In this document: positions 839 through 39,844 of the stretch, piece after piece | How the letters are laid out: each line of letters begins with the position of its first letter | Numbering within the stretch: the stretch's first letter is position 1 | DNA from: Armatimonadota bacterium | GTDB lineage: Bacteria > Armatimonadota > Hebobacteria > CAIYQO01 | Reading direction: 5' to 3' | DNA length: 64,000 nt | NCBI GenBank assembly: GCA_029553475.1 | Contig: JAKPKV010000028.1 | Location: forward strand, 62,001-126,000 | Made by a program: the position numbers and the translations under genes | The notes under the pieces: generated by a model | The model's input: only the letters and a program-made list of their open reading frames with translations | Database searches by the model: none | What the model was told of the DNA's origin: nothing

Positions 839-875
839 GACAGGGGCGGCGCCGTCGTTGCCGCCCCTGTCTTTT
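839..875 (+). terminator. Rho-independent terminator after ferritin
   Basis: A perfect 12-bp stem (GACAGGGGCGGC with GCCGCCCCTGTC) closes a 9-base loop and is followed directly by TTTT. It separates the superoxide reductase-ferritin unit from cydAB. Confidence 0.82.
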
Positions 876-906
876 GGCCTCTCTGACGCTTACGAGGGGG
901 ACCCGT

Positions 907-2262
907 ATGGACCCGCAACAACTCGAACTCGCCGTCGTGCTCGCCCGCATTCAGTTCGCCTTCACCACCGCCTTTCATTTCCTGTTTCCCCCCATCACCA
1001 TCGGGATGAGCTGGATCATCGCGGGCCTGATGTATCGCTACTGGCGCACGAATGACGAGGTCGTGACACGCGCGGCGCGGCTCTGGATCCGCATCTTCGC
1101 GCTCACCTTCGCCGTCGGCGTCGCCAGCGGGATCGCGCTGGAATTCCAGTTCGGGGCAAACTGGGCCGCGTATTCGCGCTTCGTGGGCGACATCTTCGGG
1201 GCGCCGCTGGCGGCGGAAGTCGTCTTCACCTTCTTCCTGGAGTCCACCTTCCTGGCGATGCTCGTGCTCGGATGGGGCCGGCTGTCCCGCGGCGTCCACT
1301 TCCTCTCCGCCGTCCTCGTCGCGGTGGGCGCCACCCTGTCCGCCTTCTGGATCCTCGTCGCCAACTCGTGGATGCAGACGCCCGCCGGTTATACGATGGT
1401 GAACGGCCGTCCCGAGCTCGCCAGCTTCGCCGCCGCCGTCTTCAACCCCTCCACGCTGCCGCGCTTCCTGCACACGGTTGACGCCTGCCTGATGACCGGC
1501 GCCTTCTTCGTCCTCGGCCTCAGCGCCATCCTGCTCTTGCGGCGGCGGCAGCGCGAGGTCGCCCGCCTCTCGTTCAACATCGCGCTGCTCGTCGCCTTCG
1601 CGGCGTCCGTGCTGCAGCTCGGCGCCGGCCACTTCCACGCCGTGCAGGTGGCGCAGACGCAGCCGGAGAAGCTGGCCGCCTTCGAGGGGCTGTATGTGAC
1701 GCAAGCCCACGCCCCGCTCCTCATCTTCGGCATCCCCGACCCCGCGGCGCGCACCGTCCATTACGCGATCAAGATCCCCGGCATGCTGAGCTGGCTGGCG
1801 ACGGGCGATCCCCGCGCCGTCGTGCGCGGCCTGAACGACTTCGGCGACGATATCCCGCCCATCGCGCTCACCTTCTACCCCTTCCACCTGATGGTCGCGT
1901 TCGGGCTCTACTTCATCGGCGTGACGCTCCTCGGGCTGTTTCTCTGGTGGCGGAACGCGCTGCATGACAATCGCCTCTTCCTCCGCCTCGCGATCGTCAC
2001 GCTGCCGCTGCCGCTGCTGACGAACGAACTCGGCTGGATCGCCGCGGAAGTCGGCCGCCAACCCTGGATCGTCTATCGCCTGATGCGCACGGCCGATGCC
2101 GTCTCCATCACCGTGCCTCCCGCGCAGATCGCCATCTCGCTGGGCGCCTTCGCCGTGGTCTACAGCGTGCTGCTCGCGGCCTGGATCGCCTTCATCCGCC
2201 GGGAGCTGCATCGCGAGCCTGCTCCCGAGAGCATCACCCCGCAACCGGAGGTGTCGGCATGA
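907..2262 (+). CDS. cydA: Cytochrome bd ubiquinol oxidase subunit I
   Basis: Membrane haem subunit of cytochrome bd oxidase, which oxidises quinol and reduces O2 to water with high affinity. I chose the ATG at 907 (MDPQQLELAVVLARIQF) because GAGGGGGA lies just upstream and the family begins here; an in-frame ATG at 874 lacks a ribosome site. The protein has 451 residues, shorter than the E. coli enzyme, consistent with a short Q-loop (CIO-like) form. Visible signatures are the N-terminal haem histidine (H24 in FHFLFPPITIG), the FLHTVDA histidine and GWIAAEVGRQPW. About nine membrane helices are apparent. It overlaps cydB by four bases (ATGA), indicating translational coupling. Confidence 0.95.
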   Translation: MDPQQLELAVVLARIQFAFTTAFHFLFPPITIGMSWIIAGLMYRYWRTNDEVVTRAARLWIRIFALTFAVGVASGIALEFQFGANWAAYSRFVGDIFGAPLAAEVVFTFFLESTFLAMLVLGWGRLSRGVHFLSAVLVAVGATLSAFWILVANSWMQTPAGYTMVNGRPELASFAAAVFNPSTLPRFLHTVDACLMTGAFFVLGLSAILLLRRRQREVARLSFNIALLVAFAASVLQLGAGHFHAVQVAQTQPEKLAAFEGLYVTQAHAPLLIFGIPDPAARTVHYAIKIPGMLSWLATGDPRAVVRGLNDFGDDIPPIALTFYPFHLMVAFGLYFIGVTLLGLFLWWRNALHDNRLFLRLAIVTLPLPLLTNELGWIAAEVGRQPWIVYRLMRTADAVSITVPPAQIAISLGAFAVVYSVLLAAWIAFIRRELHREPAPESITPQPEVSA

Positions 2263-3278
2263 GCGCGCTGGAAATCAGTTGGTATCTCCTCATCGGCGTC
2301 ATGCTCGTCGTCTACAGCATTCTCGACGGCTTCGACCTCGGCGTCGGCATCTGGTATCCCTTCGCGAAAGACGAGCGCACGCGCGGGGCGATGTTCAACG
2401 CCATCGGCCCCTTCTGGGACGGCAACGAAGTCTGGCTGCTGGGGGCCGGCGCCTGCCTGTTCGCCGCCTTCCCCCCCGCCTATGCCACCATCTTCAGCGG
2501 CTTCTACCTGGCGCTGATGCTGGTGCTCTTCGCGCTCATCGTCCGCGCCGTCTCCATCGAGTTCCGGAGCCACGCCGAAACCCCCATCGCGCGGCGCGGT
2601 TGGGGCATGGGGTTCGCCCTCGGCAGCCTGCTCCCCGCGCTGCTCTTCGGCGTCGCGCTGGGCAATCTGCTGCGCGGCATCCCGCTCAACGCGCACGGCG
2701 ACTTCCTCGGCTCTTTTTTCAGCCTGCTGAACGTCTACGCGCTCTTCATCGGCGCCGTCTCGCTGGTGATGCTCGCGGCTCACGGCGCGCTGTATTTCAC
2801 GATGAAAACCGCGGATGAGCTGGCGGAGCGCGGCCGCGCCTGGGCGCGCGCCGCGCTGGCCGCCTACCTGCCGCTGGCCGTCACCGCCATCATCGTCTCC
2901 GCGGCCACCCAGCCGCACCTGCTGGCGAACTACCTCCGCCTGCCGCTGCTCTGGGCGCTGCCCGCGCTCACCATCGCCGCGATCCTTTTCGCGATCGCCG
3001 CCAACCGCGCCGGGCGGGACACGGCCGCCTTCCTGGCCTCCTCCGCGTCCATCGCGCTCCTCCTGCTGACGGCGGTGGCCGGGCTCTTTCCGCACCTGGT
3101 GCCCGCGTCGAACAACGCCGCCTACAGCCTCACCCTCGCCAACGCCGCCGCCTCGCCACGATCGCTGGGCGTCATGCTCACCATCGCCGGCATCGGCCTG
3201 CCCATCGTCGCCGGCTATACCATCTGGGTGTATCGCGTCTTCAGCGGCAAAGTGAGCGCCGAGGGGACATATCATTGA
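2259..3278 (+). CDS. cydB: Cytochrome bd ubiquinol oxidase subunit II
   Basis: Partner subunit of cydA, needed for assembly of the oxidase. It has 339 residues, normal for the family, and is rich in membrane helices. The N-terminus carries YSILDGFDLGVG and then NEVWLLGAGACLFAAFP, both standard CydB landmarks. The start overlaps the cydA stop (ATGA). No cydDC assembly transporter or cydX is visible nearby. A separate promoter appears to begin just after the stop for the flavodiiron protein. Confidence 0.95.
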   Translation: MSALEISWYLLIGVMLVVYSILDGFDLGVGIWYPFAKDERTRGAMFNAIGPFWDGNEVWLLGAGACLFAAFPPAYATIFSGFYLALMLVLFALIVRAVSIEFRSHAETPIARRGWGMGFALGSLLPALLFGVALGNLLRGIPLNAHGDFLGSFFSLLNVYALFIGAVSLVMLAAHGALYFTMKTADELAERGRAWARAALAAYLPLAVTAIIVSAATQPHLLANYLRLPLLWALPALTIAAILFAIAANRAGRDTAAFLASSASIALLLLTAVAGLFPHLVPASNNAAYSLTLANAAASPRSLGVMLTIAGIGLPIVAGYTIWVYRVFSGKVSAEGTYH

Positions 3279-3285
3279 TCGCGGG

Positions 3286-3314
3286 TTGCGCGACCCGTGA
3301 AAAATGATTACAAT
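3286..3314 (+). promoter_or_regulatory. Candidate sigma-70-type promoter of the flavodiiron gene
   Basis: TTGCGC, 17 bases, TACAAT, about 47 bases before the start codon. The minus-10 is good and the minus-35 only half matches consensus. It would allow the flavodiiron-rubredoxin pair to be expressed apart from cydAB. Confidence 0.5.
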
Positions 3315-3361
3315 CGCTCCGACCCGCCGCGAGCGTAGGCGGCGGACCGGGAGTTCAGCTC

Positions 3362-4600
3362 ATGTCATTGCAGCCAGACACCGGCGCGCAGGCGCATGCC
3401 CCGTTCGGCGCCGTGCGCATCAGCGAACATGTCTACTGGGTGGGCGCGCTTGACTGGCGCTTGCGCGATTTTCACGGGTACGCGACCGAACGCGGCACCA
3501 CCTACAACGCCTACCTGGTGATGGGCGAGAAGATCACGCTCATTGACGCCGTCAAAGCGCCCTTCCGCGGCGAGCTGCTCGCGCGCATCGCGTCAGTGGT
3601 GGATCCGTCGCGGATTGACTACATCATCTCCAACCACGCGGAGATGGACCACACCGGCTGCCTGCCGGAGCTCATCGCGGCCACGCGGCCGGAGCGGGTA
3701 TTCGCCTCGCCCAACGGCGTGAACGCGCTGCGCGACCATTTCCACCCGCCGCTTGACGTGACGGCGGTGACGGACGGCACCACCCTTGACCTCGGCGGGC
3801 TCCATTACACGTTCATCGAGACGCGCATGCTCCACTGGCCGGACAGCATGTTCACCTGGCTGGCGGAAGACCGCGTCCTCTTCTCCAACGACGCCTTCGG
3901 CATGCATCTCGCCTCCTCCGCGCGCTTCGCGGACGAGCTCCCCGACTGGCTGCTGGAGCACGAGGCGGCGAAATATTACGCGAATATCCTGCTGCCCTAC
4001 TCCAACCTGGTGCTGAAGCTGGCGGAGAAGCTGCGCGCGCTCGACCTGCCGCTGGCCATCATCGCCCCCGACCACGGCCCCATCTGGCGCGACAATCACG
4101 GGCGCATCCTCGACCTCTACGGGCGGTGGGCCGCCGGCGCGCCGTCAACGAAGGCGGTGGTCATCTACGACACCATGTGGGAGAGCACGGCGATGATGGC
4201 GTCGTCCATCTGCGAGGGCCTCGCCGGCGCCGGCGCTCCCGTCACGCTGCTGCCGCTGGCCGTCACCCCGCGCAGCGATGTCGCCACCGCGCTCCTCAAC
4301 GCGGGGGCGCTGCTGGTCGGCTCCCCCACCCTCAATAACACGCTGTTTCCCACCGTGGCCGACGTGCTCACCTATCTGCGAGGGTTGAAGCCGCCGCGCC
4401 TCGTCGGCGCCGCGTTCGGCTCGTATGGCTGGAGCGGAGAAGCGGTGGCGCAGTTGATCGAGACCCTGCGTGCCATGAAGATTGAAGTGCTGGGCGACGG
4501 GGTACGAGTCAAATACGTTCCGGATGCCGATGCCCTGACCCAGTGCTATGCCCTCGGCGCGATGGTTGCCGAACGAATCACCCAACAGAAGGAGTCCTGA
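3362..4600 (+). CDS. fprA: Flavodiiron protein (A-type flavoprotein, O2/NO reductase)
   Basis: Soluble enzyme reducing O2 to water, and in some members NO to N2O, with electrons from rubredoxin. Residues 1-260 form the beta-lactamase-like diiron domain with all ligands visible: H92, E94, D96 and H97 in [10 protein letters not shown]158 in MLHWPDSM, D177 in SNDAFGMH and H238 in APDHGP. Residues from about 264 ([12 protein letters not shown]) form the flavodoxin domain that binds FMN. At 412 residues it is a basic class A protein with no fused rubredoxin; a separate rubredoxin follows at once, as its likely electron donor. Confidence 0.95.
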
Positions 4601-6286: not shown

Positions 6287-6382
6287 GCAGCAATACTGGC
6301 GTTTTGCCTTCCCGCGAGCGACGCAGTGCCGCGGTGGCGAGCGCCGGCAATGCACTTTCGTACACCAGAAGGAGTCTTCGCC

Positions 6383-7558
6383 ATGAAACGGTTCCAGGTT
6401 CCCTTCGTGCCGGCACTCGTGGTGCCGGCGATCGTCGCGCTGGCGCTCGCCGGCGTCGCATTGGTGTCGTCCACCGCGCAGGCGCAAAAGACGGCCTACA
6501 AGATCGGCGCGATCTTCGACGTCACCGGCCCGGCCTCGCCTCTCGGCACCCCCGAGCAGGAAACGGTGAAGATGCTCGTGAAGCAAATCAACGCCAAAGG
6601 CGGCATTGACGGCCATCCGCTCGAGGTCGTCTATTACGACAACGGCAGCGATGAAGCCAAAAGCCTGATGGCGATGAAGAAGCTCATCGAAGCCGACAAA
6701 GTCCTCGCCATCATCGGCCCCAGCCAGACCGGCACCACGCTGGCGGGCGCGCAGACCGTGGAAACGGCGAACATCCCGCTGGTGTCCTGCGCCGCCGGCG
6801 TCGGCATCGTCGAGCCGGTGAAACCGTGGATTTTCAAAACCGCCCAGAGCGACGTGCACGCGGTGAAAAAGGTGCTGGACTACTGTCAAGCCAAGCGGTA
6901 TGCCCGCGTGGCGCTGATCACCGTCGCCAACGCTTTCGGCGATTCCGGGAAAAAGCAAGTCGAGCTGCAGGCGCGCGGCGCGCGGGTCTCGGTGGTCGCG
7001 CGCGAGAGTTTCGGCAGCAACGACACCGACATGAAGGCGCAGTTGATGCGCATTCGACAGAGCAACGCGCAAGCGGTCATCTGCTGGGGCACCAACCCCG
7101 GCCCGGCCATCGTGGCGAAGAACATGAAAGAGCTGGGCATCCGCCTGCCGCTGCTGATGAGCCACGGCATCGCCAATCGAAAATTCATCGAGCTCGCCGG
7201 CCCCGCCGCGGAAGGGGTGATCTTCCCCGCCGGCAAGCTGCTGATCGCCGACACCCTGCCGAACACGGATCCGCAGAAGCGCGTGCTGCAGGCCTACGCG
7301 GCTGACTTCAAGAAAACCTACGGCAAAGAAGCCGACACCTTCGGCGGGCACGCCTATGATGCCCTCATGCTCGTCTGCCGCGCGCTGCGCGCCGTCGGCC
7401 CCGATAAAGCGAAGCTGCGCGCGGAGCTGGAAAAGACGAAAGGCTTCGTCGGCATTTCCGGCGTCTTCTCGTTCAGCGCGAAAGACCACAACGGGCTGAA
7501 CGAGGACGCGTTCGCCATGGTGATCATCAAGAACGGCGACTGGACGCGCCTGAAATAA
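6383..7558 (+). CDS. livK: ABC transporter substrate-binding protein, branched-chain amino acid type
   Basis: Exported binding protein of a LIV-type importer. ATG 6383 follows AAGGAG at the right distance and opens a signal peptide of about 33 residues (MKRFQVPFVPALVVP, hydrophobic core, STAQA before QK). The mature part has the periplasmic-binding type I fold: YKIGAIFDVTGPAS, AIIGPSQTGTT, IPLVSCAAG and DTFGGHAYDA. It has 391 residues. The permease and ATPase genes follow, and the operon ends in a PaaK-like ligase, so the ligand may be an aromatic or other organic acid rather than an amino acid; this is inference. Its own promoter and a 3' hairpin should give it higher expression than the permease genes. 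Confidence 0.9.
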   Translation: MKRFQVPFVPALVVPAIVALALAGVALVSSTAQAQKTAYKIGAIFDVTGPASPLGTPEQETVKMLVKQINAKGGIDGHPLEVVYYDNGSDEAKSLMAMKKLIEADKVLAIIGPSQTGTTLAGAQTVETANIPLVSCAAGVGIVEPVKPWIFKTAQSDVHAVKKVLDYCQAKRYARVALITVANAFGDSGKKQVELQARGARVSVVARESFGSNDTDMKAQLMRIRQSNAQAVICWGTNPGPAIVAKNMKELGIRLPLLMSHGIANRKFIELAGPAAEGVIFPAGKLLIADTLPNTDPQKRVLQAYAADFKKTYGKEADTFGGHAYDALMLVCRALRAVGPDKAKLRAELEKTKGFVGISGVFSFSAKDHNGLNEDAFAMVIIKNGDWTRLK

Positions 7559-7579
7559 GCGCATCCACGCGCGCCGGGC

Positions 7580-7616
7580 GCGGCCCCTCGTCCGCGATGC
7601 ACGGGCGGGGGGCCGC
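7580..7616 (+). terminator. Hairpin between binding-protein gene and permease genes
   Basis: GCGGCCCC and GGGGCCGC form an 8-bp stem with a 21-base loop, about 20 bases after the livK stop. No T tract follows. It may protect the livK message or reduce read-through. Confidence 0.4.
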
Positions 7617-7633
7617 GGCGTCTCCGCGACAGG

Positions 7634-7665
7634 TTATTGCTAAATCAGTAATCGCATGGTAGAAT
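7634..7665 (+). promoter_or_regulatory. Promoter of livHMGF and the ligase
   Basis: TTGCTA, 17 bases, TAGAAT, with the same TTATTGCT and TCAG blocks as the livK promoter. It suggests common regulation of two transcripts. Confidence 0.72.
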
Positions 7666-7728
7666 CCACCTGCCCGGCATCCGACCGGTCGCGCGATGAC
7701 CGAGCCTGTCTACGCCAGAAAGCGCATC

Positions 7729-8661
7729 ATGGGGAACCTTCCAGACATCCTGCAACTGCTGTTCACCGGGCTTGCGGTGGGCAGCATTTACGCCATCATC
7801 GCCGTCGGATTCACCGTCATCTTCAGCTCCACGCAGGTGGTCAACTTCGCCCAGGGTGAATTCGTGATGATCGGCGCGATGGTCAGCTACTGGCTGGTCG
7901 GCGCCGAGCACGGTCCGCACCTGCCGCTGCTCCTCGCGCTCCCCCTGGCCGTCCTGGCCGCCATGCTGGTCGGCAGCGCGCTGGGCTGGGTGCTGATGCG
8001 GCCGTTGAAAGACGCCTCCGTCACCTCGCTGATCATCATCACCGTGGGCGCTTCGATGCTGATGCACGGCGTGGCGAGCCTGCTCTGGGGCAAAGATCCG
8101 GTGGCCGTCGCCCCGTTCTCGAACACGTCGGGCTACTCGCTCACCCTGCCGGCGGCGCTGACCGGCCCCCACGCGTACCCGGTCTACATCGGCACGCAGG
8201 AGCTCTGGGTGATGGGGCTGGCGGCGCTGGTGGTGCTGGCGCTGACGTTCTTCTTCAATCGCACGATGATCGGCAAAGCGATGCGCGCGGTCTCGGTGAA
8301 CCGGCACGGCGCGCGGCTCATCGGCATCAACGTCTCCCGCGTGGTGGTGGGCGCCTTCGCGCTCTCGGCGGCCATCGGCGCCATCGCCGGCGCCGCCATC
8401 GCCCCCATCAGCATGGCCTCCTACGGCATGGGCACCATGCTGGGCCTGAAGGGGTTTGCCGCGGCGATCGTCGGCGGGCTGGGCAATTTCCCCGGCTCCA
8501 TCATCGCCGGCCTGCTGCTGGGCATCATGGAAAATTTCAGCGCCACCTATCTCTCGTCGCAGTATAAGGACGCCTTCGCGTTCATCATCCTGCTGGGCGT
8601 ACTGGTGATCAGCCCCCAGGGCATTGTGGCGCTGTTCCGGCGACGGAGGGCCAGCGTATGA
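7729..8661 (+). CDS. livH: LIV-type ABC transporter permease (LivH family)
   Basis: Inner-membrane permease, first of the pair. I prefer ATG 7729 (MGNLPDILQLLFTGL), where LivH proteins normally begin; ATG 7696 would add a charged 11-residue extension and has no ribosome site either. The protein has 310 residues and about eight membrane helices. Family segments include GSIYAIIAVGFTVIFS, VVNFAQGEFVMIGA and GLKGFAAAIVGGLGNFPGS. It overlaps livM by four bases. Confidence 0.92.
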   Translation: MGNLPDILQLLFTGLAVGSIYAIIAVGFTVIFSSTQVVNFAQGEFVMIGAMVSYWLVGAEHGPHLPLLLALPLAVLAAMLVGSALGWVLMRPLKDASVTSLIIITVGASMLMHGVASLLWGKDPVAVAPFSNTSGYSLTLPAALTGPHAYPVYIGTQELWVMGLAALVVLALTFFFNRTMIGKAMRAVSVNRHGARLIGINVSRVVVGAFALSAAIGAIAGAAIAPISMASYGMGTMLGLKGFAAAIVGGLGNFPGSIIAGLLLGIMENFSATYLSSQYKDAFAFIILLGVLVISPQGIVALFRRRRASV

Positions 8662-9755
8662 GCCGCGTCCGCCCCTCACCGACGCTGATATCCGTCCTCC
8701 TCGGCATCGCGCTCGTGGCGCTCGCGCCGTGCGTCGTCACCAACAGCTACGCGCTGGTCCCGCTGACGTTCATCGCCATTTACACCATCCTGGTAATCGG
8801 GCTGAACATGCTGATGGGCTATGCCGGACAGGTATCGCTGGGCCACGCGGCCTTCTTCGCCATCGGCGCCTATACCTCCGCGATACTCTCCACCCAGTAC
8901 GGCTGCTCACCGTGGGCGGCCATGCCGGCCGGCATGGCGCTGGCGGGCATCGTCGCGTTGCTCGTCGGCATGCCGTGCCTGCGCCTGCGCGGCCATTACC
9001 TGGCGATGGCGACGCTGGGCTTCGGGATGATCGTCTACATCCTGTTGATGGAGTGGCCGGATTCCCCCCCGCTGCTGCTGGCGACATTGGGCCGGCTCCT
9101 CCACCTCCCGGCTTCGACGCCCTGGCCGTTCACCGGCGGCGCGTCGGGCCTGCCGGACATCCCCGCGCTCGCGATCGGCTCCTTCGTCTTCCACACCAAT
9201 CTGCAGAAATTCTACCTGACCTGGGCCTTCGCCATCCTCGCGCTGCTGCTCTGCGCGAATATCGTGAACTCCCGCGTGGGGCGGGCGTTGCGCGCCGTGC
9301 ATGGCAGCGAAGCGGCAGCGGCGACGCTGGGCGTGAATATCGCCGCGTATAAGATTCACGTCTTCGTGCTGTCCGCCATCCTCGCCGCGCTGGCAGGCAG
9401 CCTGTACGCGCACGCGGTGGGGTTCATCAGCCCCCCCACCTTCAATTTCATCCGGTCGGTGGATTTCGTGGTGATGGTCGTCATCGGCGGCATGGCGAGC
9501 ATCTGGGGCGCGGTGCTGGGCGCCGGCACCATCGTGCTGTTGGGGAACTGGCTGCAGGACGTCGGCGCGAAATTCCCGCGCCTGGCGGAATTCGACCTGA
9601 TCATCCACAGCGCCATCCTCATCCTGGTGATGATTTTCATGCCCGCCGGCATCGTCTGCACGGCGCGCGACGCGGTGCTGCGCCGGCTGCGCGGCCGCGC
9701 CACGGCGCCCGCCGCCGCCGCGCCCGCGCACAGCGAGGAGGTGGCGACGCCATGA
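8658..9755 (+). CDS. livM: LIV-type ABC transporter permease (LivM family)
   Basis: Second permease, 365 residues with about nine to ten membrane helices. Typical segments are LNMLMGYAGQVSLGHAAFF, where the permease contacts its ATPase, and VVMVVIGGMASIWGAVLGA. It starts within the livH stop (ATGA) and itself overlaps livG by four bases, so the whole block is translationally coupled. The C-terminal tail is rich in Ala and Arg and is probably cytoplasmic. Confidence 0.93.
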   Translation: MSRVRPSPTLISVLLGIALVALAPCVVTNSYALVPLTFIAIYTILVIGLNMLMGYAGQVSLGHAAFFAIGAYTSAILSTQYGCSPWAAMPAGMALAGIVALLVGMPCLRLRGHYLAMATLGFGMIVYILLMEWPDSPPLLLATLGRLLHLPASTPWPFTGGASGLPDIPALAIGSFVFHTNLQKFYLTWAFAILALLLCANIVNSRVGRALRAVHGSEAAAATLGVNIAAYKIHVFVLSAILAALAGSLYAHAVGFISPPTFNFIRSVDFVVMVVIGGMASIWGAVLGAGTIVLLGNWLQDVGAKFPRLAEFDLIIHSAILILVMIFMPAGIVCTARDAVLRRLRGRATAPAAAAPAHSEEVATP

Positions 9756-10525
9756 CGGCACTCCTCGATATCCGCCATCTCACCCGCGCGTTCGACGGCC
9801 TGCTCGCCGTCTCGGACGTGAGTTTTTCCATCGCGGGCGGGCAGATTACCGCGCTCATCGGCCCGAACGGCGCGGGGAAATCCACGCTGCTGAACCTGGT
9901 CTCCGGCACGCTGCCCCCGACGGGCGGCGTCATCACCTACCAGGGCCAGGTCATCAGCGGCTGCCCCCCGCACCGCATCGCCGAATACGGCATCGCCCGC
10001 ACCTTTCAGCACGTCGAACTCTTCATGAACATGACGGCGGCCGAGAACGTCATGGTCGGCCGGCATTTGCGCTCGCGCGGCACGCTGTTTTCCGCGATGT
10101 TCCGCCTGTTCGGCACCGCCGCGGAGGAGCGGCGCGTGCGGGAGGACGCGCTGCGTTTCCTGGAGCGCGTGGGCCTGCGCGAGGACGCGGATACGCCGGC
10201 CAGCGCGCTGCCGTTCGGACGGCAGCGCCTGCTGGAGATTGCCCGCGCGCTGGCCACCGAACCGAAGTTGCTGCTGCTCGACGAGGCGGCGTCCGGCCTC
10301 TCCACGCGCGAGAAGCGCGAGCTGGTTTCCCTCATTTACGCCATTCGCGACGCCGGCGTCACCATCTTCATGGTGGACCATGACATGGACCTGGTGATGA
10401 GCATCTCCGATGCGGTGGTGGTGCTCGACCACGGCGAAAAGATCGCCGAGGGCACGCCCACGGCGGTGCAGCACGACGCGCGCGTGATCGCCGCCTACCT
10501 GGGAGAGGAGGCCGCGCATGCTTAG
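9752..10525 (+). CDS. livG: LIV-type ABC transporter ATP-binding protein (LivG family)
   Basis: Cytoplasmic ATPase of 257 residues. Walker A is GPNGAGKST near residue 37; Walker B is LLLLDEAASGL; the H-loop is FMVDHDMD. The ABC signature region reads ALPFGRQRLLEIARAL, with FGRQ in place of the more usual YGxQ. ARTFQHVELF is a LivG landmark. It overlaps livF by eight bases. Confidence 0.94.
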   Translation: MTALLDIRHLTRAFDGLLAVSDVSFSIAGGQITALIGPNGAGKSTLLNLVSGTLPPTGGVITYQGQVISGCPPHRIAEYGIARTFQHVELFMNMTAAENVMVGRHLRSRGTLFSAMFRLFGTAAEERRVREDALRFLERVGLREDADTPASALPFGRQRLLEIARALATEPKLLLLDEAASGLSTREKRELVSLIYAIRDAGVTIFMVDHDMDLVMSISDAVVVLDHGEKIAEGTPTAVQHDARVIAAYLGEEAAHA

Positions 10526-11252
10526 ACTCACCAGCGTGGTCACCAATTACGGCCGCACCACCGCGCTGCACGGCGTCTCGCTGCACGTGCGGCCGGGGGA
10601 AATCGTGGCCCTGGTGGGGGCCAACGGCGCGGGGAAGACGACGGTGCTCAACACCATCTCCGGCATCACCCCGGCGGCCAAGGGCCAGGTGCAGTACGGC
10701 GAGAAGGACCTCGCGCGGATGAGCGCGGACCGCATCGTGCGGCTGGGGATTTCCCACGTGCCGGAAGGGCGCCAGCTTTTCGCGCCGCTCTCGGTGAAGG
10801 ACAACCTGCTGCTCGGCTCCTACACGCTGCGCCGCGCGGAGAAGCAGGCGCATCAGCAGGAGGATCTGCAGCGCATTTACGCGCTGTTCCCCATCCTGCA
10901 GGAGCGCTCCGCACAGCGGGCGGGCACGCTCTCCGGCGGCGAGCAACAGATGCTGGCCATCGGGCGCGCGCTGATGGCGCGCCCCACGCTGCTGCTGCTC
11001 GACGAACCGTCCATGGGCCTGGCGCCCAGGGTGATGGCGGAGATTTTCACCACCATTGCGGAATTGCGCACCCACGGGTTGACCGTGCTGCTGGTGGAAC
11101 AGAACGCGCGATGGGCGCTGAACATCGCCGACCGCGGCTACGTGCTGGAGACGGGCAGCATCGTGCTGGACGGCAGCGCGGAGGCGCTGCTGGAAAATCG
11201 CGAAGTGCAGCGCGCCTACCTGGGCAAGGGGTATCGCGAGGTGTGGGAGTAG
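10518..11252 (+). CDS. livF: LIV-type ABC transporter ATP-binding protein (LivF family)
   Basis: Second ATPase, 244 residues. Walker A is GANGAGKTT, the signature is LSGGEQQMLAIGRAL, Walker B is LLLLDEPSMGLAP and the H-loop region is LLVEQNARWAL, all as in LivF. SHVPEGRQLFAPLSV is another family mark. The PaaK-like ligase begins 15 bases downstream, so both sit on one transcript. Confidence 0.94.
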   Translation: MLRLTSVVTNYGRTTALHGVSLHVRPGEIVALVGANGAGKTTVLNTISGITPAAKGQVQYGEKDLARMSADRIVRLGISHVPEGRQLFAPLSVKDNLLLGSYTLRRAEKQAHQQEDLQRIYALFPILQERSAQRAGTLSGGEQQMLAIGRALMARPTLLLLDEPSMGLAPRVMAEIFTTIAELRTHGLTVLLVEQNARWALNIADRGYVLETGSIVLDGSAEALLENREVQRAYLGKGYREVWE

Positions 11253-11267
11253 CTTCAGGAGACGACC

Positions 11268-12575
11268 ATGAGCACCGACATGCCGATCTGGGACCAGCGC
11301 ACCGAAACACTCGACCGGGACGCGCTGCGGCAACTGCAGCTCGAGCGCCTACAGGCCAGCCTGTTTCGGGCGTACCGCAACGTGGCGTTCTACCGCAAGC
11401 GCTTTGACGCGCTGGGGCTGGCGCCGGAAGACGTCGAAACGCTGGAGGAGGTGCCCACGCTGCCCTTCACCACGAAGGACGACCTGCGCTCCGGGTACCC
11501 GTACGACATGCTGGCCGTGCCGCTGCGCGAGGTGGTGCGCCTGCAAAGCGCCTCGTACGCGCGCCCGACGGTGTGCGCCTTCACCCGCAACGACCTGCGG
11601 CACTGGAACGAGCTGGCGGCGCGGCTGCTGAGCGCCGGGGGCGTGACCCGCGACGACGTGGTGCAGATCTTCTTCGGGCAGAGCACGCTCGTCTGGAGCC
11701 TGAGCTTCCACGGCGGGGCCGAGCGTCTGGGCGCGTCGGTCATCCCCACCCCGCCGGTGGACATCGCGCAGCAGCTCGCGCTGATGCAGGATTTCAAGAG
11801 CACGGCGCTGGTGGGCACCGCCAGCGAAGCGATCTACCTGGCCGCCGTCGTCGCGGAGAAGAAGCTCGATCCGCGGCGGCTGTCGGTGCGCGTCGGGCTG
11901 TTCGGCGCCGAACCGTGGTCGGAGACGATGCGCGCGCACCTTGAAGGCACGCTGGGCATCACCGCGCTGGACGTCTACGGCATCGCCGAGCTCGGCGGGC
12001 CGGGCATCGCCGGCGAGTGCCCGGTGAAACAGGGGCTGCACCTGGCGGAGGATCACTTCTTCGTCGAAATCATTGACCCGGCGAGCGGCAAGGCGCTGCC
12101 GGAGGGCGAAGAAGGCGAGATTGTGCTGACCACGCTGACCAAAGAGGCGCTGCCGCTGCTGCGCTTCCGGACCTGCGACCTGGGGCGGCTCGATGCCGCG
12201 CCGTGCGCCTGCGGCCGCACGCACGCCCGGCTCTCGCGCATCACCCGTCGGACCGACGGCTCCTTCATCGTGCAGGGACGCAAGCTCCACCCCGCGCAGC
12301 TCGAGGCCATCCTGGCGGAAGTCGAAGGCGCGCGCCCGAATTTCCGCATCATCCTCGACCGCAAGGTGGGGGTGGAAGAGATCGAGCTGCTGGTGGAATT
12401 CCTGCCCGGCCTCTCCACCGACACCCCGGGGACCGTGCTGGCGGCGGAAGACCGCATCGTGCAGCGCGTGGCGGGGGCGACGGGCCTGACGCCGCGCGTC
12501 CGCCTGGTGGAATCCGCCACGCTGGAACGGCTGGCGGGGGATGCCGCCGGCGCCGTGATTGACAAGCGGACCTGA
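11268..12575 (+). CDS. PaaK-like phenylacetate-CoA ligase family protein with degenerate nucleotide loop
   Basis: Member of the phenylacetate-CoA ligase family (adenylate-forming, 435 residues). AGGAG precedes the ATG. Conserved parts: the N-terminal RAYRNVAFYRKRF helix, VPTLPFTTKDDLR, the adenylate-binding DVYGIAELGGPGIAGEC at 235-251, RFRTCDLGRL and the C-terminal domain ending in VRLVESATLERL. The phosphate-binding loop, normally SSGTTGKPT, reads SASYARPT at residues 94-101: the Gly and Thr residues are absent although the flanking VxxFTRNDL is kept. The enzyme may be inactive, use its substrate differently, or act as a sensor or carrier. Its place at the end of a LIV operon suggests that the imported solute is an organic acid. 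Confidence 0.85.
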   Translation: MSTDMPIWDQRTETLDRDALRQLQLERLQASLFRAYRNVAFYRKRFDALGLAPEDVETLEEVPTLPFTTKDDLRSGYPYDMLAVPLREVVRLQSASYARPTVCAFTRNDLRHWNELAARLLSAGGVTRDDVVQIFFGQSTLVWSLSFHGGAERLGASVIPTPPVDIAQQLALMQDFKSTALVGTASEAIYLAAVVAEKKLDPRRLSVRVGLFGAEPWSETMRAHLEGTLGITALDVYGIAELGGPGIAGECPVKQGLHLAEDHFFVEIIDPASGKALPEGEEGEIVLTTLTKEALPLLRFRTCDLGRLDAAPCACGRTHARLSRITRRTDGSFIVQGRKLHPAQLEAILAEVEGARPNFRIILDRKVGVEEIELLVEFLPGLSTDTPGTVLAAEDRIVQRVAGATGLTPRVRLVESATLERLAGDAAGAVIDKRT

Positions 12576-12585
12576 GGGGGAATGC

Positions 12586-12623
12586 CACGCGCGCCCCGGT
12601 GGTAGCTCACCGGGGCGCGCGTG
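12586..12623. terminator. Bidirectional terminator between convergent genes
   Basis: A perfect 16-bp stem (CACGCGCGCCCCGGTG with its complement) closes a 6-base loop. It sits between the ligase stop and the stop of the gene on the other strand and can serve both. Confidence 0.8.
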
Positions 12624-33635: not shown

Positions 33636-34874
33636 ATGTGTGTGAGACTTATTGTGCTCTCCCTGGCCATTGCGCTGACCACCCTGTCGGCGTCGGCGCA
33701 GGACGCACTCACCCTCGACGCCGCCGTTCAGCTCGCCCGCGCGCAGCATCCCGCCTTGCAGGCCGCACGGGAGGACGTCACGGCGGCCATCGCCAACCTG
33801 CGCGGCGCCAGGATGCCGCGCAACCCCGAGATCATCGTCACCCCCGGCGTGCTGGGGCCGGCCGGCTCCGATGAGTTCCTCTCCATCGCGCAGTCGCTGG
33901 AACTCAATGGGGCGCGCGCCGCCCGCGCGCGTGCCGCGGGCGGCCAGGTGCAGGCCGCGACCGCCGATCAGCAGGTGACGGAGCGCGAGGTGCTCCTCGC
34001 CGTGCGGACGGCGTACTGGGACCTCCTCCAGGCCCAGGCCATCTCCGCCGCGGATGCCGAGAATGTGGGGCACGCGGAGGCGCTGCTGGACGCCGCGAAA
34101 AAGCAGGTGGAGCTCGGTAACGAGCCGACTGCCCATGCCATGAAGGTGGAGGTCGAGCTGGCCCGCGCCCGCCAGCAGTTGGCCCGCTCCCGGGCTGACG
34201 CCGCCCAGGCCGCCGCCGCGTTGAATACGGCGATGGGCCGTGACCCTTCCACGCCGCTGACGCTGGCGGAGACGCTCACCGTGCCGTCACTCGCCTTTGA
34301 CGATGCGGCGTTATATCGCCTGGCCGAAACCTCGCGCCCGGAAATCGCGCGCGAGCAGGCGTATCACGCCGTCATCCGGGCGGATATCGAAGCGGCGCGC
34401 GCCGCCCGCCGTCCGGACGTCACCGTGCAGGTGCGGCAGGAGGAGTGGGCCGGTGATGGCGGCGTCGGCGTGGGCATCTCGCTCCCGCTGGTGGATTGGG
34501 GATCGGCGAAGGCGGAGCGCCGGCGCGCGGAAGCGGCCGCGCGCGCCCAGGAGAAGCGGGTGGACAGTGCCCGTATCGCCATCCGGCAGGACGTCGCCGC
34601 CGCGCTCATCGCCGTCCGTGATGCCGAGGGGCAGCTGCGCACCCTGCGCGAGCAGGTGCTGCGGCCGGCGGAGCAGTTGGCGGCGATGGCGCGGCTCGGC
34701 TACGAGGAAGGCGCCCTGACCTATCTGGAAGTCCTGGAAGCCCGCCGCACCGTGCGGGCGGTGCAGGTGGAGTATCTTGCCACCCTTGGCGCATATCACA
34801 AGGCGCTGGCGCGGTTAACGTGGGCGGTCGGCGCGGAAGCGCTGCCGGTCCCGGAGAAAGAGGTTCCCCGATGA
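33636..34874 (+). CDS. TolC-family outer-membrane efflux protein
   Basis: Outer-membrane channel of a tripartite metal efflux system, 412 residues. Residues 1-21 are a signal peptide ending in SASAQ. It has the two TolC repeats: LTLDAAVQLARAQHPALQAAR at the start and SRPEIAREQAYHAV in the second half, plus long Ala/Arg/Glu-rich helices and GVGISLPLVDWG before the second pair. GAGGTAA lies before the ATG. It overlaps the adaptor gene by four bases, so the order is channel, adaptor, pump. Confidence 0.88.
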   Translation: MCVRLIVLSLAIALTTLSASAQDALTLDAAVQLARAQHPALQAAREDVTAAIANLRGARMPRNPEIIVTPGVLGPAGSDEFLSIAQSLELNGARAARARAAGGQVQAATADQQVTEREVLLAVRTAYWDLLQAQAISAADAENVGHAEALLDAAKKQVELGNEPTAHAMKVEVELARARQQLARSRADAAQAAAALNTAMGRDPSTPLTLAETLTVPSLAFDDAALYRLAETSRPEIAREQAYHAVIRADIEAARAARRPDVTVQVRQEEWAGDGGVGVGISLPLVDWGSAKAERRRAEAAARAQEKRVDSARIAIRQDVAAALIAVRDAEGQLRTLREQVLRPAEQLAAMARLGYEEGALTYLEVLEARRTVRAVQVEYLATLGAYHKALARLTWAVGAEALPVPEKEVPR

Positions 34875-36673
34875 CGCATCGTCTAGTGATGCTATTCGTC
34901 GCATTGGCGGTGGTCGCGACGACCATCGTCTTCGTCACGCGACGCGCTACCACCTCGGCGACGCCAGCGACGGCGCATGCCGAGGAAGTCGGCCATGAGG
35001 GCCATAACCATGAAGAGGGCGAGGAAGCACACGGCCATGACGGCGTGAAAATTGCCGGGCTGGAGACCGCGCCGGTCGTCTTCGCTCCGGTGACCGCCCA
35101 GTTGAGCGTCACCGGCGAGGTGCACGCCAACGAGGACCAGACCGCGAAGGTGGGGTCCCCCGTCTCCGGACGACTCACACAGCTTTCCGGGAAAGTCGGA
35201 CAGCGCGTGCGGGCGGGGCAGACCCTGGCCACCGTGGCCAGCCGCGACGTGGCTGATGTGCAATCGGCCCTGACGCGTGCCCGCGCGGAGGAACAGGCGG
35301 CACGGGCACGCCTGGCCAACGTGAAAGAACTGGCCGCGACCGGCGCGCTCACCCAGCGCCCGCTCGACGATGCCGAAGCGGCGTTTTCCTCCGCGCAGGC
35401 CGAGGTAAAGCAGGCGGAAGCCGCGCTGGCGCGTGCGCGCAATGCGCGCCAACTGGCCGCGGATGACCTCGACCGGAAGCAAAAGCTGGCGAAGGCCAAT
35501 GCGTACCACGGCCCGCAGATTGAAGCGGCGAAAGCGAATGTCGCCACAGCGCAGGCGGCACTGGAATCCGCGCAGGCGGCGGTCAAAGTGAAGCAAACCG
35601 CCTATGACCGGAGTAAGCGGCTCTTCGACGCCGGCATCGCCGCGCGCCGCGACGTGGAAGCGGCCGAAGCCGACCTGGCGGACGCCAAGGCGAAGGAGAA
35701 GGAAGCCCGCACCCACCTGGAGATCGCCCGGCAAACGCTGGCGCGCGAAGAACACCTCGCCGGGCAGGGGCTGTACACCTCGGCGGAAACGAAAGCGGCG
35801 GAATCCGCCGTACATCAAGCCGAGCGCGAGGTGGATACCTGTGAGGCCGCCGTGCAGCGTGCCAGGGGGCAATTGACGGTGGCGCAATCCGTGCTCGCTC
35901 GCGAGAGACAGGTGGCCGGGAAAGCGCTCCTGGCCCGGCAGGACATCCAGGGTGCGGAAGCCGACCTGGCGCGCGCGCGCGCCGAGGTGCAGGCGGCCGA
36001 AAACGCGCTGCGCGCCCTCCGTGCCGTCGGCGCCGCCGGCAATGCGGTGAGCCTTCCCATCATCGCGCCCATCAGCGGCGTCATCACCGAGCGCCGGGCG
36101 ACGCCGGGCCAGGCGGTGGAGGCCTCCACCGATCTCTTCACCATCGTCAACACCGACCGCGTGTGGGTGTGGGCCAACGTCTATGAGAAAGACCTGGCGA
36201 AAGTCCGCCTGGGGGCAGTGGCCGCGATTCACGCCAACGGCGTCCCGAACGCGACGTTTGCCGGCAAGGTGACCCATATCGGCAGCGCCATGAATGCCGA
36301 GACCCGCACCGCCCGCATCCGCTGCGAAGTGGCGAATCCCGGCGACCGGCTCAAAGCCGGCATGTTCGCCACCGTGAACATCGCCACGGGGAAAGGCGCG
36401 TCCGCGCTCCTCATCCCGAAAGTTGCCGTGCTCGATGATGCCGGCAAAAAGATCGTCTTTTCGCCGTGTATGGACTGCGAGGACGACGAGGCGACGGGCA
36501 AAAGCTGCGGCTCCTTCGACAAGCTGGAAGTCACCCTGGGCGCCACCCACGGCGACAACGTCGAAGTGGTCAGCGGCGTGCAGGCCGGCCTGGAGGTCGT
36601 CACCACCGGGCAGTACCAGTTGAAAACCGCCTTCGGCTCCGGGAAACTGGAAGCCGGGTGCGCCGATCATTAA
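34871..36673 (+). CDS. Periplasmic adaptor (MFP) of heavy-metal RND efflux, unusually long
   Basis: Links the RND pump to the outer-membrane channel. At 600 residues it is far longer than CusB-type adaptors of about 400. An N-terminal membrane helix (6-22) leads to a His cluster (H36, H42, H45, H47, H54, H56). Beta-barrel and lipoyl halves flank a hairpin region of about 280 residues (roughly 115-393), in which a coiled-coil unit with AExxLxxAR pattern recurs at about 165, 262, 307 and 358. The lipoyl domain resumes at LPIIAPISGVITERRATPG. The C-terminal membrane-proximal domain carries CMDC and a further Cys (533, 536, 546), and the end is CADH. These clusters suggest direct metal binding. 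The extra helices may form a longer or doubled hairpin. Confidence 0.88.
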   Translation: MTHRLVMLFVALAVVATTIVFVTRRATTSATPATAHAEEVGHEGHNHEEGEEAHGHDGVKIAGLETAPVVFAPVTAQLSVTGEVHANEDQTAKVGSPVSGRLTQLSGKVGQRVRAGQTLATVASRDVADVQSALTRARAEEQAARARLANVKELAATGALTQRPLDDAEAAFSSAQAEVKQAEAALARARNARQLAADDLDRKQKLAKANAYHGPQIEAAKANVATAQAALESAQAAVKVKQTAYDRSKRLFDAGIAARRDVEAAEADLADAKAKEKEARTHLEIARQTLAREEHLAGQGLYTSAETKAAESAVHQAEREVDTCEAAVQRARGQLTVAQSVLARERQVAGKALLARQDIQGAEADLARARAEVQAAENALRALRAVGAAGNAVSLPIIAPISGVITERRATPGQAVEASTDLFTIVNTDRVWVWANVYEKDLAKVRLGAVAAIHANGVPNATFAGKVTHIGSAMNAETRTARIRCEVANPGDRLKAGMFATVNIATGKGASALLIPKVAVLDDAGKKIVFSPCMDCEDDEATGKSCGSFDKLEVTLGATHGDNVEVVSGVQAGLEVVTTGQYQLKTAFGSGKLEAGCADH

Positions 36674-36682
36674 GGAGGGGGC

Positions 36683-39600
36683 ATGGATCAGCATCAACAT
36701 CCACACGGCAGCCTGATCGACAAGATCATCCATGCCGCGTTCAGTCACCAGGCGATCGTCGTGATGCTCGTGGGTCTCGCGCTGGTGTTCGGCATCACCG
36801 CCTACCAGCAGTTGCCGCGCAACGTCTACCCCGACATCACCATCCCGGTGTTCACCATTGTCACGGAAAACGAGTCCATGGCCGCCGAGGAGATCGAGAC
36901 GACCATCACCCGCCCCATGGAGGCGGCGATGAACGGTCTGCCCGGCGTGCAGCGCGTGCGCTCGCAGACGACGCAGGGGTTATCCTCCGTGGTCGTGGAG
37001 TTCGGCATCGAGACGGAGTTCTGGCGGGCGCGCCAGTTCGTCACCGAGCGCATGTCGCAGGTGACCGGGCAACTGCCGCCGGGCACCGAGCCCCCGACCC
37101 TCTCCAGCGCCACCACGCGCCTGGCCGAGGTGTATGAGTTCGCCGTCGAAGGCGATCTCCCGCCCACGGAGCTGCGCGAGCTGGCCGAGTGGCAGATCCG
37201 CTACAGCCTGATGAATGTGCCGGGCGTCGCTGAAGTGCTGAACATGGGCGGCAAGCTGCGGCAGTACCGGGTCACCCTCGATCAACACGCCTTGCGCGCC
37301 TATCATGTGACCCTCAAGGAGGTCGAAGAAGCGATCAAGGGCGGCAATGAGAACGCCTCTGGGGGCTTCATCAGCACCGGCGTCGCCGAATATACCGTGC
37401 GCGGCCTGGGACGCTACAACACTGTTGAAGATATTCAGATGACGGTGTTGACGGCGCGCAACGGCGTGCCGGTCTATTTGCGCGATGTCGCCACCATCGA
37501 AGAGAGCACCGCCATCTCGCGCGGCATCGCCAGCAAGGATGGCAAGGAAACGGTGATCGCACTGGTCATCAAGCAGCCGAACGCCGACACCGTGCAAGTG
37601 GTGAAGGGGATCGAGCGCACGATCGCCGAACTACAGGAGACCCTGCCGAAGGGCGTGAAGATCGTGCCGTACTACGATCAAACGCACCTCATCGAGCATT
37701 CCCTGTCCAGCGTGACGCGCGCCATCCTCATCGGGGCGGTGCTGGTCATCCTGGTGCTGCTGCTCTTCCTGGGGCATTTTCGCAGCACGCTGATCGTCGC
37801 CGCATCGTTGCCGTTGTCGGTGATGATCGCCGGGGTGCTCATGCGGCACCTCGGGGTCGGGTTGAATACCATGTCGCTCGGAGGCTTGGCCATCGCCGTC
37901 GGTATCATGGTGGACGCCTCCATCATCATGGTGGAAAACCTCTACCACCGCTTCCATCGCAGCCGGGGGAATCTCCACGAGCCGGATGTCAAACGCACGG
38001 TGGCCCATAAAGCGGCCATCGAGGTGGGGCGCCCCATCGCCTTCGCTACGCTCATCATCGTCGCGGTGTTCTTGCCCCTCTTCCTGATGGGCGGCATCGA
38101 AGGGCTCCTGTTCCGCCCGTTGGCCGTCACCGTGGCGGCGGCGATGCTGGTGGCGCTGGTGCTCTCGCTCACCCTCACCCCGGTGCTCGGGATGCGCTTT
38201 CTCCATCCGAAACCGCACGAGGATGCGGAGGGCGAGGTCAAATTCGTCACCTGGATCAAGCGGGGGTACGTGCCGGTGCTCGAATGGGCGCTGCAGCGCC
38301 GCTGGGTGGTGATCGGCACCGCCGTCGCGTTGCTCGTGCCTTCCGCGCTGGGCTTGCTCGCGGTGGGGCGCGATTTCATGCCGAAACTCGATGAAGGCTC
38401 GTGGGTGGTCTCCACCGTCACGCCGGCGGAAACCTCGCTGGAAGAGAATAACCGCATCACCCGGCAGATCGAGCACCTGCTGGTGGAGAACCCGAACATC
38501 GCCGAAGTGGTCCGCCGCAACGGGCGCTCGGAGCGGGCGATTGGCTGCGTGCTGCCGGTGAACTCCGGCGAGATCATCGTCAACCTGAAGCCGCGCACGG
38601 AACTCACCAAGCCCACCGCGGCGATCCTCGCCGCGGTACGCGAAGAGATCGAGCGCATCCCCGGCGTGGCGGCGGCCTTCACCCAGCCGCTTCAACTCAA
38701 GATTGACGAGAGCATGGAGGGCACCCCGGCACCCTTGCAGGTAAAACTCTTCGGACCGGACATCCAGGTGCTGGCGGAGAAGGGGGCGCAGATCAAGGAG
38801 ATCATGGAGCGCACCAGAGGCGTCGCGGACATCAACATGGATCAGGTGGCGGGCATCCCGCAGGTGCAGATTCAGATTGACCGGCAGGCGGCGGCGCGCT
38901 ACGGCGTCTCCGTCGGCGCAATCTCCGAGATGATCCACTTCGCCATCGGCGGCGAGGAGCTCACCCAGGTGTGGAAAGGGCAGCGCAGCTACGGCGTCTT
39001 CGTCCGCCTGGCCGACCACGTGCGCGGCGACCTGGACGCCCTCGGCGACCTCCTGGTGGATACCCCCTCCGGCGCGGCGGTGCCCCTGTCGCAGCTCGCG
39101 GACATCACGCTGGCGGAAGGCCCGAACGTCATCTGGCGCGAGGCGATGAACCGCCGGCTGAGCATCAACGCCAGCATCCAGGGGCGCGACCTGGGCGGCG
39201 TGGTCGCCGACATCAAGGCGGGGATGAAGGCGGTGAAACTGCCGGCTGACTACTACGTGGTCTTCGGTGGGCAGTTCCAGAATCAGCAGCGCGCCATGAA
39301 GTCGCTGGCGCTGGCCACGGTGATTGCCCTGATCATCGTCTTCATGCTGCTCTTCGCGGCGTTGAAGTCGGCATCGCAGGCGATGATCATCCTCGCCACC
39401 GTGCCCAGCGCCTTCATCGGCGGAGTGGCCTCGCTGCTCCTCACCGGGGAGAGCCTGAACGTCTCCTCGGCAGTGGGCTTCATCGCGCTCTTCGGCATTG
39501 CCGTGCAAAACAGCCTGGTGCTGCTCACGCAGACCAATGACTTCGTGGCGGAAGGCCACACGAAGGAGGAAGCCATCCGCCTGGCGAGCGTGCAGCGCCT

Positions 39601-39844
39601 GCGCCCGAAGCTGATGACCGCCCTGTGCGCCGCCCTGGGCGTGGCGCCGATTCTCGTGAGCAGCGGGGTCGGCGCGGAGATTGAAAAGCCGCTGGCCATC
39701 GTCCTCGTCGGTGGGCTGATCACCTCGACGCTGTTCACCCTGTGCGTGCTGCCGGCAGTCTATCTCGCCTGGGAGCACGCGAAAAGCCATGCCCAGCGGC
39801 ATCTCAGCCTGCTGCGCGCACGGCGCGTGAAAGAAGTGGCCTAA
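36683..39844 (+). CDS. Heavy-metal efflux RND pump (CusA/CzcA family)
   Basis: Inner-membrane proton-driven pump of 1053 residues, the usual length. AAGGAGGGG precedes the ATG. The N-terminus has HQHPH, then IIHAAFSHQAIVVMLVG, the first helix. Family marks: QQLPRNVYPDITIP, VGIMVDASIIMVENLYHRFHR in helix 4 with the proton-relay Asp and Glu, FLPLFLMGGIEGLLFRPLA, VGRDFMPKLDEGSWV and GIAVQNSLVLL. The relay Asp of divalent-type CzcA in DFG is replaced (AVG), closer to the CusA pattern for Cu(I)/Ag(I); this is an indication only. It follows its channel and adaptor in one operon. Confidence 0.9.
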   Translation: MDQHQHPHGSLIDKIIHAAFSHQAIVVMLVGLALVFGITAYQQLPRNVYPDITIPVFTIVTENESMAAEEIETTITRPMEAAMNGLPGVQRVRSQTTQGLSSVVVEFGIETEFWRARQFVTERMSQVTGQLPPGTEPPTLSSATTRLAEVYEFAVEGDLPPTELRELAEWQIRYSLMNVPGVAEVLNMGGKLRQYRVTLDQHALRAYHVTLKEVEEAIKGGNENASGGFISTGVAEYTVRGLGRYNTVEDIQMTVLTARNGVPVYLRDVATIEESTAISRGIASKDGKETVIALVIKQPNADTVQVVKGIERTIAELQETLPKGVKIVPYYDQTHLIEHSLSSVTRAILIGAVLVILVLLLFLGHFRSTLIVAASLPLSVMIAGVLMRHLGVGLNTMSLGGLAIAVGIMVDASIIMVENLYHRFHRSRGNLHEPDVKRTVAHKAAIEVGRPIAFATLIIVAVFLPLFLMGGIEGLLFRPLAVTVAAAMLVALVLSLTLTPVLGMRFLHPKPHEDAEGEVKFVTWIKRGYVPVLEWALQRRWVVIGTAVALLVPSALGLLAVGRDFMPKLDEGSWVVSTVTPAETSLEENNRITRQIEHLLVENPNIAEVVRRNGRSERAIGCVLPVNSGEIIVNLKPRTELTKPTAAILAAVREEIERIPGVAAAFTQPLQLKIDESMEGTPAPLQVKLFGPDIQVLAEKGAQIKEIMERTRGVADINMDQVAGIPQVQIQIDRQAAARYGVSVGAISEMIHFAIGGEELTQVWKGQRSYGVFVRLADHVRGDLDALGDLLVDTPSGAAVPLSQLADITLAEGPNVIWREAMNRRLSINASIQGRDLGGVVADIKAGMKAVKLPADYYVVFGGQFQNQQRAMKSLALATVIALIIVFMLLFAALKSASQAMIILATVPSAFIGGVASLLLTGESLNVSSAVGFIALFGIAVQNSLVLLTQTNDFVAEGHTKEEAIRLASVQRLRPKLMTALCAALGVAPILVSSGVGAEIEKPLAIVLVGGLITSTLFTLCVLPAVYLAWEHAKSHAQRHLSLLRARRVKEVA

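Follow-up and report, generated by a model that had tools for sequence, protein, structure and literature searches.

Known systems and the locus

The closest described proteins are the phenylacetate-CoA ligases (PaaKs) of known structure, namely Burkholderia PaaK1 (2Y27) and PaaK2 (2Y4O) and Bacteroides BT_0428 (4R1L/4R1M). The functions of their motifs are taken here from a review (PMC8388817), according to which the lysine of motif A10 is the key catalytic residue and single changes in the P-loop cut activity about 2000-fold for a Thr and 1000-fold for a Gly. In Bacteroides, arylacetate-CoA ligase activity is reported for an AMP-forming ligase encoded next to IOR, and this IOR may serve aromatic amino acid synthesis (PMC13285125). 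The second system that bears comparison is the LIV/HAAT ABC transporter, encoded by operons of the type livKHMGF. To our knowledge, no classic liv operon includes a PaaK-like gene.

Among kinases and phosphatases, pseudoenzymes have been studied in depth. Cases in which a dead paralogue is retained beside an active one, much as is described below, include the BbsCD dehydrogenase and the trypanosome AdoMetDC prozyme (cited in PMC10818641 and PMC10211241), which differ from the present case in fold and in that the most constant genetic link here is to a transporter. Literature searches, mostly without subscription journals, returned no relevant match for a cluster of LIV, PaaK and IOR genes and no ANL-superfamily pseudoenzyme, transporter-tied or otherwise. 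The gene family and the transporter are of known kinds, and a phylum-wide group of dead, transporter-linked PaaKs was not found in the literature searched.

The window (the whole stretch of 64,000 nucleotides analysed here, from an Armatimonadota genome) holds all five liv genes, to which a PaaK-like gene has been appended:

6326..7558, + strand: livK, LIV-type periplasmic substrate-binding protein (NCBIfam NF011933, E 5e-25)
7696..8661, + strand: livH, permease (PF02653, E 5e-42)
8658..9755, + strand: livM, permease (PF02653, E 1e-43)
9752..10525, + strand: livG, ATPase (PF00005 and PF12399; LivG model, E 7e-79)
10518..11252, + strand: livF, ATPase (LivF model, E 5e-85)
11268..12575, + strand: LIV-distal PaaK-like protein of 435 aa, putative pseudoenzyme (PaaK models, E 1e-114 to 1e-117; AF2; Foldseek)
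12586..12623, + strand: hairpin of 17 bp, 3′ of the PaaK-like stop codon (RNA fold -43.8 kcal/mol, z -5.4)

The order livK-H-M-G-F is unbroken on one strand, only 15 bp separate livF from the PaaK-like gene, and AGGAG, which resembles a ribosome-binding site, lies just 5′ of the latter; the gene thus closes a complete LIV transport operon, as the initial annotation had it. The hairpin, which is terminator-like only and has no U-tract, probably marks the operon end. Whole-genome searches returned a single PF13458 protein (livK) and two PF02653 permeases (livH and livM), and on these searches livKHMGF is the sole LIV system found in the genome. Just upstream of the operon, positions 874-4600 encode an oxygen/NO protection group, in which a flavodiiron (flavorubredoxin-like) protein comes after subunits I and II of a cytochrome bd oxidase.

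A PaaK fold with a rewritten active site

The PaaK-like protein matches PaaK over its full length (PDB 2Y27, E 3e-94), and the NCBIfam PaaK models score it at 382 and 393 bits, well below their curated cut-offs of 646 (TIGR02155) and 700 (NF041878). The AlphaFold (AF2) model has the PaaK fold throughout (pLDDT 91.8, and 77 in the P-loop block), and Foldseek places it closest, among solved structures, to 4R1M_A (TM 0.95), with 0.91 to 2Y4O; the strands that flank the P-loop (91-94 and 102-105) are retained in the model. Length, fold, the N-terminal helical region, the PF14535 C-terminal domain (E 1e-12), the A5 Tyr and the A7 Asp are shared with the solved PaaKs, to which the protein is 36-40% identical in structural alignment. 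It differs from them in a shortened and rewritten P-loop, a lost A10 Lys, an altered A8 and a rewritten aryl pocket. Specifically, the following elements were located by alignment:

11547..11570, + strand: altered A3/P-loop, residues 94-101, SASYARPT for SSGTTGKPT
11676..11699, + strand: rewritten helix of the aryl-acid pocket, residues 137-144, GQSTLVWS for GYGLFTGG
11976..11990, + strand: A5, YGIAE for YGLSE; Tyr237 and Glu241 retained, Ser/Thr replaced by Ala240
12168..12179, + strand: A7, RTCD; Arg301 and the ribose-binding Asp304 retained
12246..12260, + strand: A8 hinge, RRTDG for GR(S/T)DD; first Asp retained, second lost
12537..12551, + strand: A10, GDAAG for GKAKR; catalytic Lys replaced by Asp425

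The unusual loop, from which the initial annotation started, is confirmed at residues 94-101. Against 2Y27, 2Y4O and 4R1L (SSGTTGKPT/SSGTTGNPT) it aligns as SAS--YARPT, with two residues deleted and no loop Gly left, and it departs (SAS--YARP) from the pattern (S/T)SG(T/S)TGxP of PaaK enzymes. It had also been stated that the adenylate-site motif and the C-terminal domain were kept, which is correct for the domain; A5, A8, the A10 Lys and the pocket are altered, and the P-loop is far from being the sole change, given that at least four further active-site elements differ. The change of A7 from RTRD to RTCD was considered as an additional loss and dropped, since intact relatives can have R, G, K, H or S at this position. 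Judged from its sequence, the protein has no adenylation apparatus that can be recognised, and this conclusion is well supported.

Evidence from a congeneric genome

A separately assembled congeneric genome (UR.bin144, locus L005) encodes a copy with 89% protein identity over 361 aa, with an identical loop and the same changes in A5 and A8, on a contig that stops before A10. A sequencing or assembly error, or a mutation of a single strain, for which nothing but the unusual loop itself would speak, is therefore refuted, with practically no probability left to it. Homologues with an intact loop in the same position, which the initial annotation would have taken as a sign of local mutation or error, do exist in other Armatimonadota, in Nitrospirota and in Desulfobulbia, but they do not carry that implication, because the change is shared by two congeneric species and because in Armatimonadota the majority of the other copies lack catalytic residues of a different set.

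Between the same two genomes, dN/dS (Nei-Gojobori) is 0.174 for the PaaK-like gene, as compared with 0.155 for livK, 0.090 for livH, 0.213 for livM and 0.163 for livG, and with 0.06-0.07 for the two PaaKs that are intact. Within the protein, dN is lowest (0.019) in residues 61-120, the segment that contains the odd loop. The gene is under purifying selection, and a simple relic is rejected on dN/dS, in agreement with the earlier view that it is not decaying. With the loop shared by the congener and dN/dS like that of the liv neighbours, the gene is neither a sequencing error nor a relic.

A conserved gene cluster and its two PaaK lineages

A total of 291 Armatimonadota genomes were searched and the neighbourhoods of the matches were read. 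The relatives of the window gene turned out to belong to a conserved cluster, iorA-iorB-paaK-ACT(PF19571)-livK-livH-livM-livG-livF-paaK′, which is found whole or almost whole in Nitrospirota (L026), in Desulfobulbia (L012, L014, L020) and in several members of the Armatimonadota (L104, L116). The window gene takes the co-directional, livF-distal paaK′ position, an arrangement common to most relatives, and the link to LIV uptake that had been suggested for it is real and conserved. In the window genus, as compared with this cluster, the slot is the same, the cluster is split and paaK′ is degenerate. The parts that are contiguous in other genomes lie here on three contigs: C152 (L064), with iorA, iorB and, beside iorB, an intact paaK at C152:43515-44798; C161 (L065), with ACT and a second intact paaK, where a sodium:solute symporter stands in place of LIV; and positions 6326-12575 of the window.

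With the motif columns left out of the tree, 21 IOR/ACT-side PaaKs are set apart from all others by a branch with support of 100/99, and the query falls on the LIV-distal side, at the end of a long stem branch (0.92 changes per site). The LIV-distal group of Armatimonadota has moderate support (93/80).

An IOR and PaaK pathway would be expected to interconvert arylpyruvates, arylacetyl-CoA and arylacetates, and given this expectation and the report on the Bacteroides ligase and IOR (PMC13285125), a role of the cluster in the uptake of arylacetates or aromatic amino acids is plausible.

Catalytic loss across the family

All six catalytic features scored are kept in 15 of 51 LIV-distal members, and in Armatimonadota in only 6 of 41; the remaining 35 lack at least one, as does 1 of the 32 other PaaKs in the comparison. 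Of the 41 Armatimonadota copies, 32 have no A10 lysine motif (two of these rows being truncated), whereas none of the 51 members departs from the A5 Tyr, the A7 Asp or the first A8 Asp. The losses differ between lineages: one family has SSGAA-A and YGVSA with DRSNR or GPKDR at A10, and another retains the P-loop but has YGLAE, an RHTDD-like A8 and GRTR. At minimum, five changes are needed on the tree for the P-loop, five for A10, six for the A5 Ser/Thr and two for the A5 Glu. The IOR-side paralogues stay intact within Armatimonadota. Since the Armatimonadota relatives have lost differing catalytic residues, the window gene is probably a member of a family of dead enzymes that have been retained in association with the LIV transporter.

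Outside the Armatimonadota genomes searched, where the frequency of degeneracy is based on about a dozen loci, 9 of 10 LIV-distal copies are intact. The exception, from a Pseudomonadota MAG (L017:7995-9290), has the altered P-loop SSGNSGM and GAERWS for GAEPWS, and may have taken a first step towards the same kind of loss. In a separate case, a Desulfobacterales PaaK beside an ACT gene (L023:7995-9302) has an independently altered P-loop (SSEIIDDRALAV) and GRFVR at A10; it is probably a second, unrelated dead PaaK.

Transporter linkage and possible functions

Liv genes are linked to 34 of the 35 degenerate Armatimonadota copies (the window included). Where 7 kb or more of the upstream region is available (21 degenerate copies), liv genes are nearby in 20 and another paaK in 12. 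Conversely, liv genes are missing from 4 of the 6 Armatimonadota copies that are intact, these 4 being two sister pairs, and degeneracy is associated with liv linkage at Fisher p 0.0007 when shared ancestry is ignored. The transporter is favoured as the functional context, given that the counts of liv linkage exceed those of nearby paaK genes. In a mirror-tree comparison, the distances between PaaK-like copies correlate with those of paaK1 at r 0.89, with partial r of 0.39 for paaK1 and 0.41 for livF. Their median pairwise distance is 0.67, compared with 0.58-0.87 for the liv genes.

The reading that is tentatively preferred here, and that may well be wrong, is that selection maintains a PaaK paralogue, no longer capable of ATP-dependent adenylation, as an accessory that binds a ligand without catalysis and serves the LIV transporter whose genes lie directly upstream. 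Its two parts are not equally firm: the enzyme being dead is well supported by the alignments, and how it would act as an accessory is what we infer. The ligand would most likely contain adenosine (AMP, an acyl-adenylate or a CoA ester), and the protein would act by way of LivF/LivG to couple uptake to the energy or thioester status of the cell, while the intact PaaKs elsewhere in the genome would do the real ligase work. Consistent with such a role are the loss of the P-loop, the A5 Ser/Thr, the second A8 Asp, the A10 Lys and the aryl pocket in a protein that retains its fold and its adenosine-contacting residues; purifying selection, livF-linked inheritance and parallel catalytic losses across the phylum; the presence of two intact PaaKs (one of them beside iorB) to cover the catalytic job; and the fact that the genome searches turned up no LIV system besides this one. 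Of the possibilities raised initially, a binding or sensing derivative fits best with these data, its mechanism being conjectural. However, the liv linkage of degenerate copies stems from few independent lineages, liv-linked copies outside Armatimonadota are mostly intact, the partial correlations with livF and paaK1 are similar and single out neither as the partner, and the retained Tyr and Asp may serve folding and not binding. Moreover, the pocket is rewritten in the window genus, so that the ligand may be unrelated to arylacetates. A broader version, in which dead ANL-superfamily ligases throughout the phylum are cytoplasmic ligand-sensing LIV subunits, descended from an active arylacetate-CoA ligase that was already linked to the transporter and that lost activity several times independently, is somewhat unlikely.

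The main rival, doubtful but not far-fetched, holds that the dead copy forms heterodimers with a PaaK that is still intact and thereby adjusts how active or stable the latter is. Burkholderia PaaK1 and PaaK2 are homodimeric and the isolated P-loop domain depends on dimerisation (PMC8388817), which would suit both the strands that the model keeps around the P-loop and the low dN of that segment. Intact PaaKs are encoded in the window genome and in the majority of genomes that have a degenerate copy, the correlation with paaK1 points the same way, and there are precedents for an inactive subunit in BbsCD and the trypanosome AdoMetDC prozyme. On the other hand, a second paaK near only 12 of the 21 well-flanked degenerate copies, against 20 for liv, speaks for the transporter as partner, and the intact copies of the window genome sit on other contigs.

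A changed chemistry, in which the retained adenosine site would be used on adenylates or CoA thioesters (e.g. for the second half-reaction only, or for hydrolysis), had also been raised in the initial annotation and is now improbable, because the A10 lysine is gone as well. The adenosine-contacting residues and the C-terminal domain are retained, and the model resembles PaaK chains of the closed type, among them 4R1M_A, 2Y4O and 6HE0, the last in the thioesterification state, but little can be concluded from a predicted conformation. However, the window genus has changes in the P-loop, the A10 Lys, A8 and the aryl pocket alike, and the replacements differ by lineage with no new conserved catalytic set seen in the 51-member comparison, which looks like loss and not like a new active site held in common.

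Finally, a passenger gene, whose catalysis became dispensable after duplication and which erodes slowly within a co-transcribed operon, would account for the graded, lineage-specific loss of catalytic residues and for the long stem branch of the query, but it is very unlikely in view of a dN/dS near that of the liv genes, open reading frames in the matches, pairwise distances that do not exceed the liv values and an odd loop that is unchanged between two congeneric species.

Implications and other genes in the window

Orthologues that range from intact to several motifs lost, all in one fixed gene position, make a path from enzyme to non-enzyme traceable. If the protein is a ligand sensor, it would represent a new coupling of LIV-type uptake to CoA or adenylate metabolism. 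At the level of annotation, the label ‘phenylacetate-CoA ligase’ at the liv loci of Armatimonadota may often be wrong with regard to activity.

Elsewhere in the window, positions 33636-39844 carry genes for an outer membrane efflux protein (OEP) and an AcrB-type RND pump, apparently an ordinary efflux operon, and positions 57879-60623 encode a cyclic-di-GMP signalling protein of 914 aa with a 7TM sensor and PAS, GGDEF and EAL domains.
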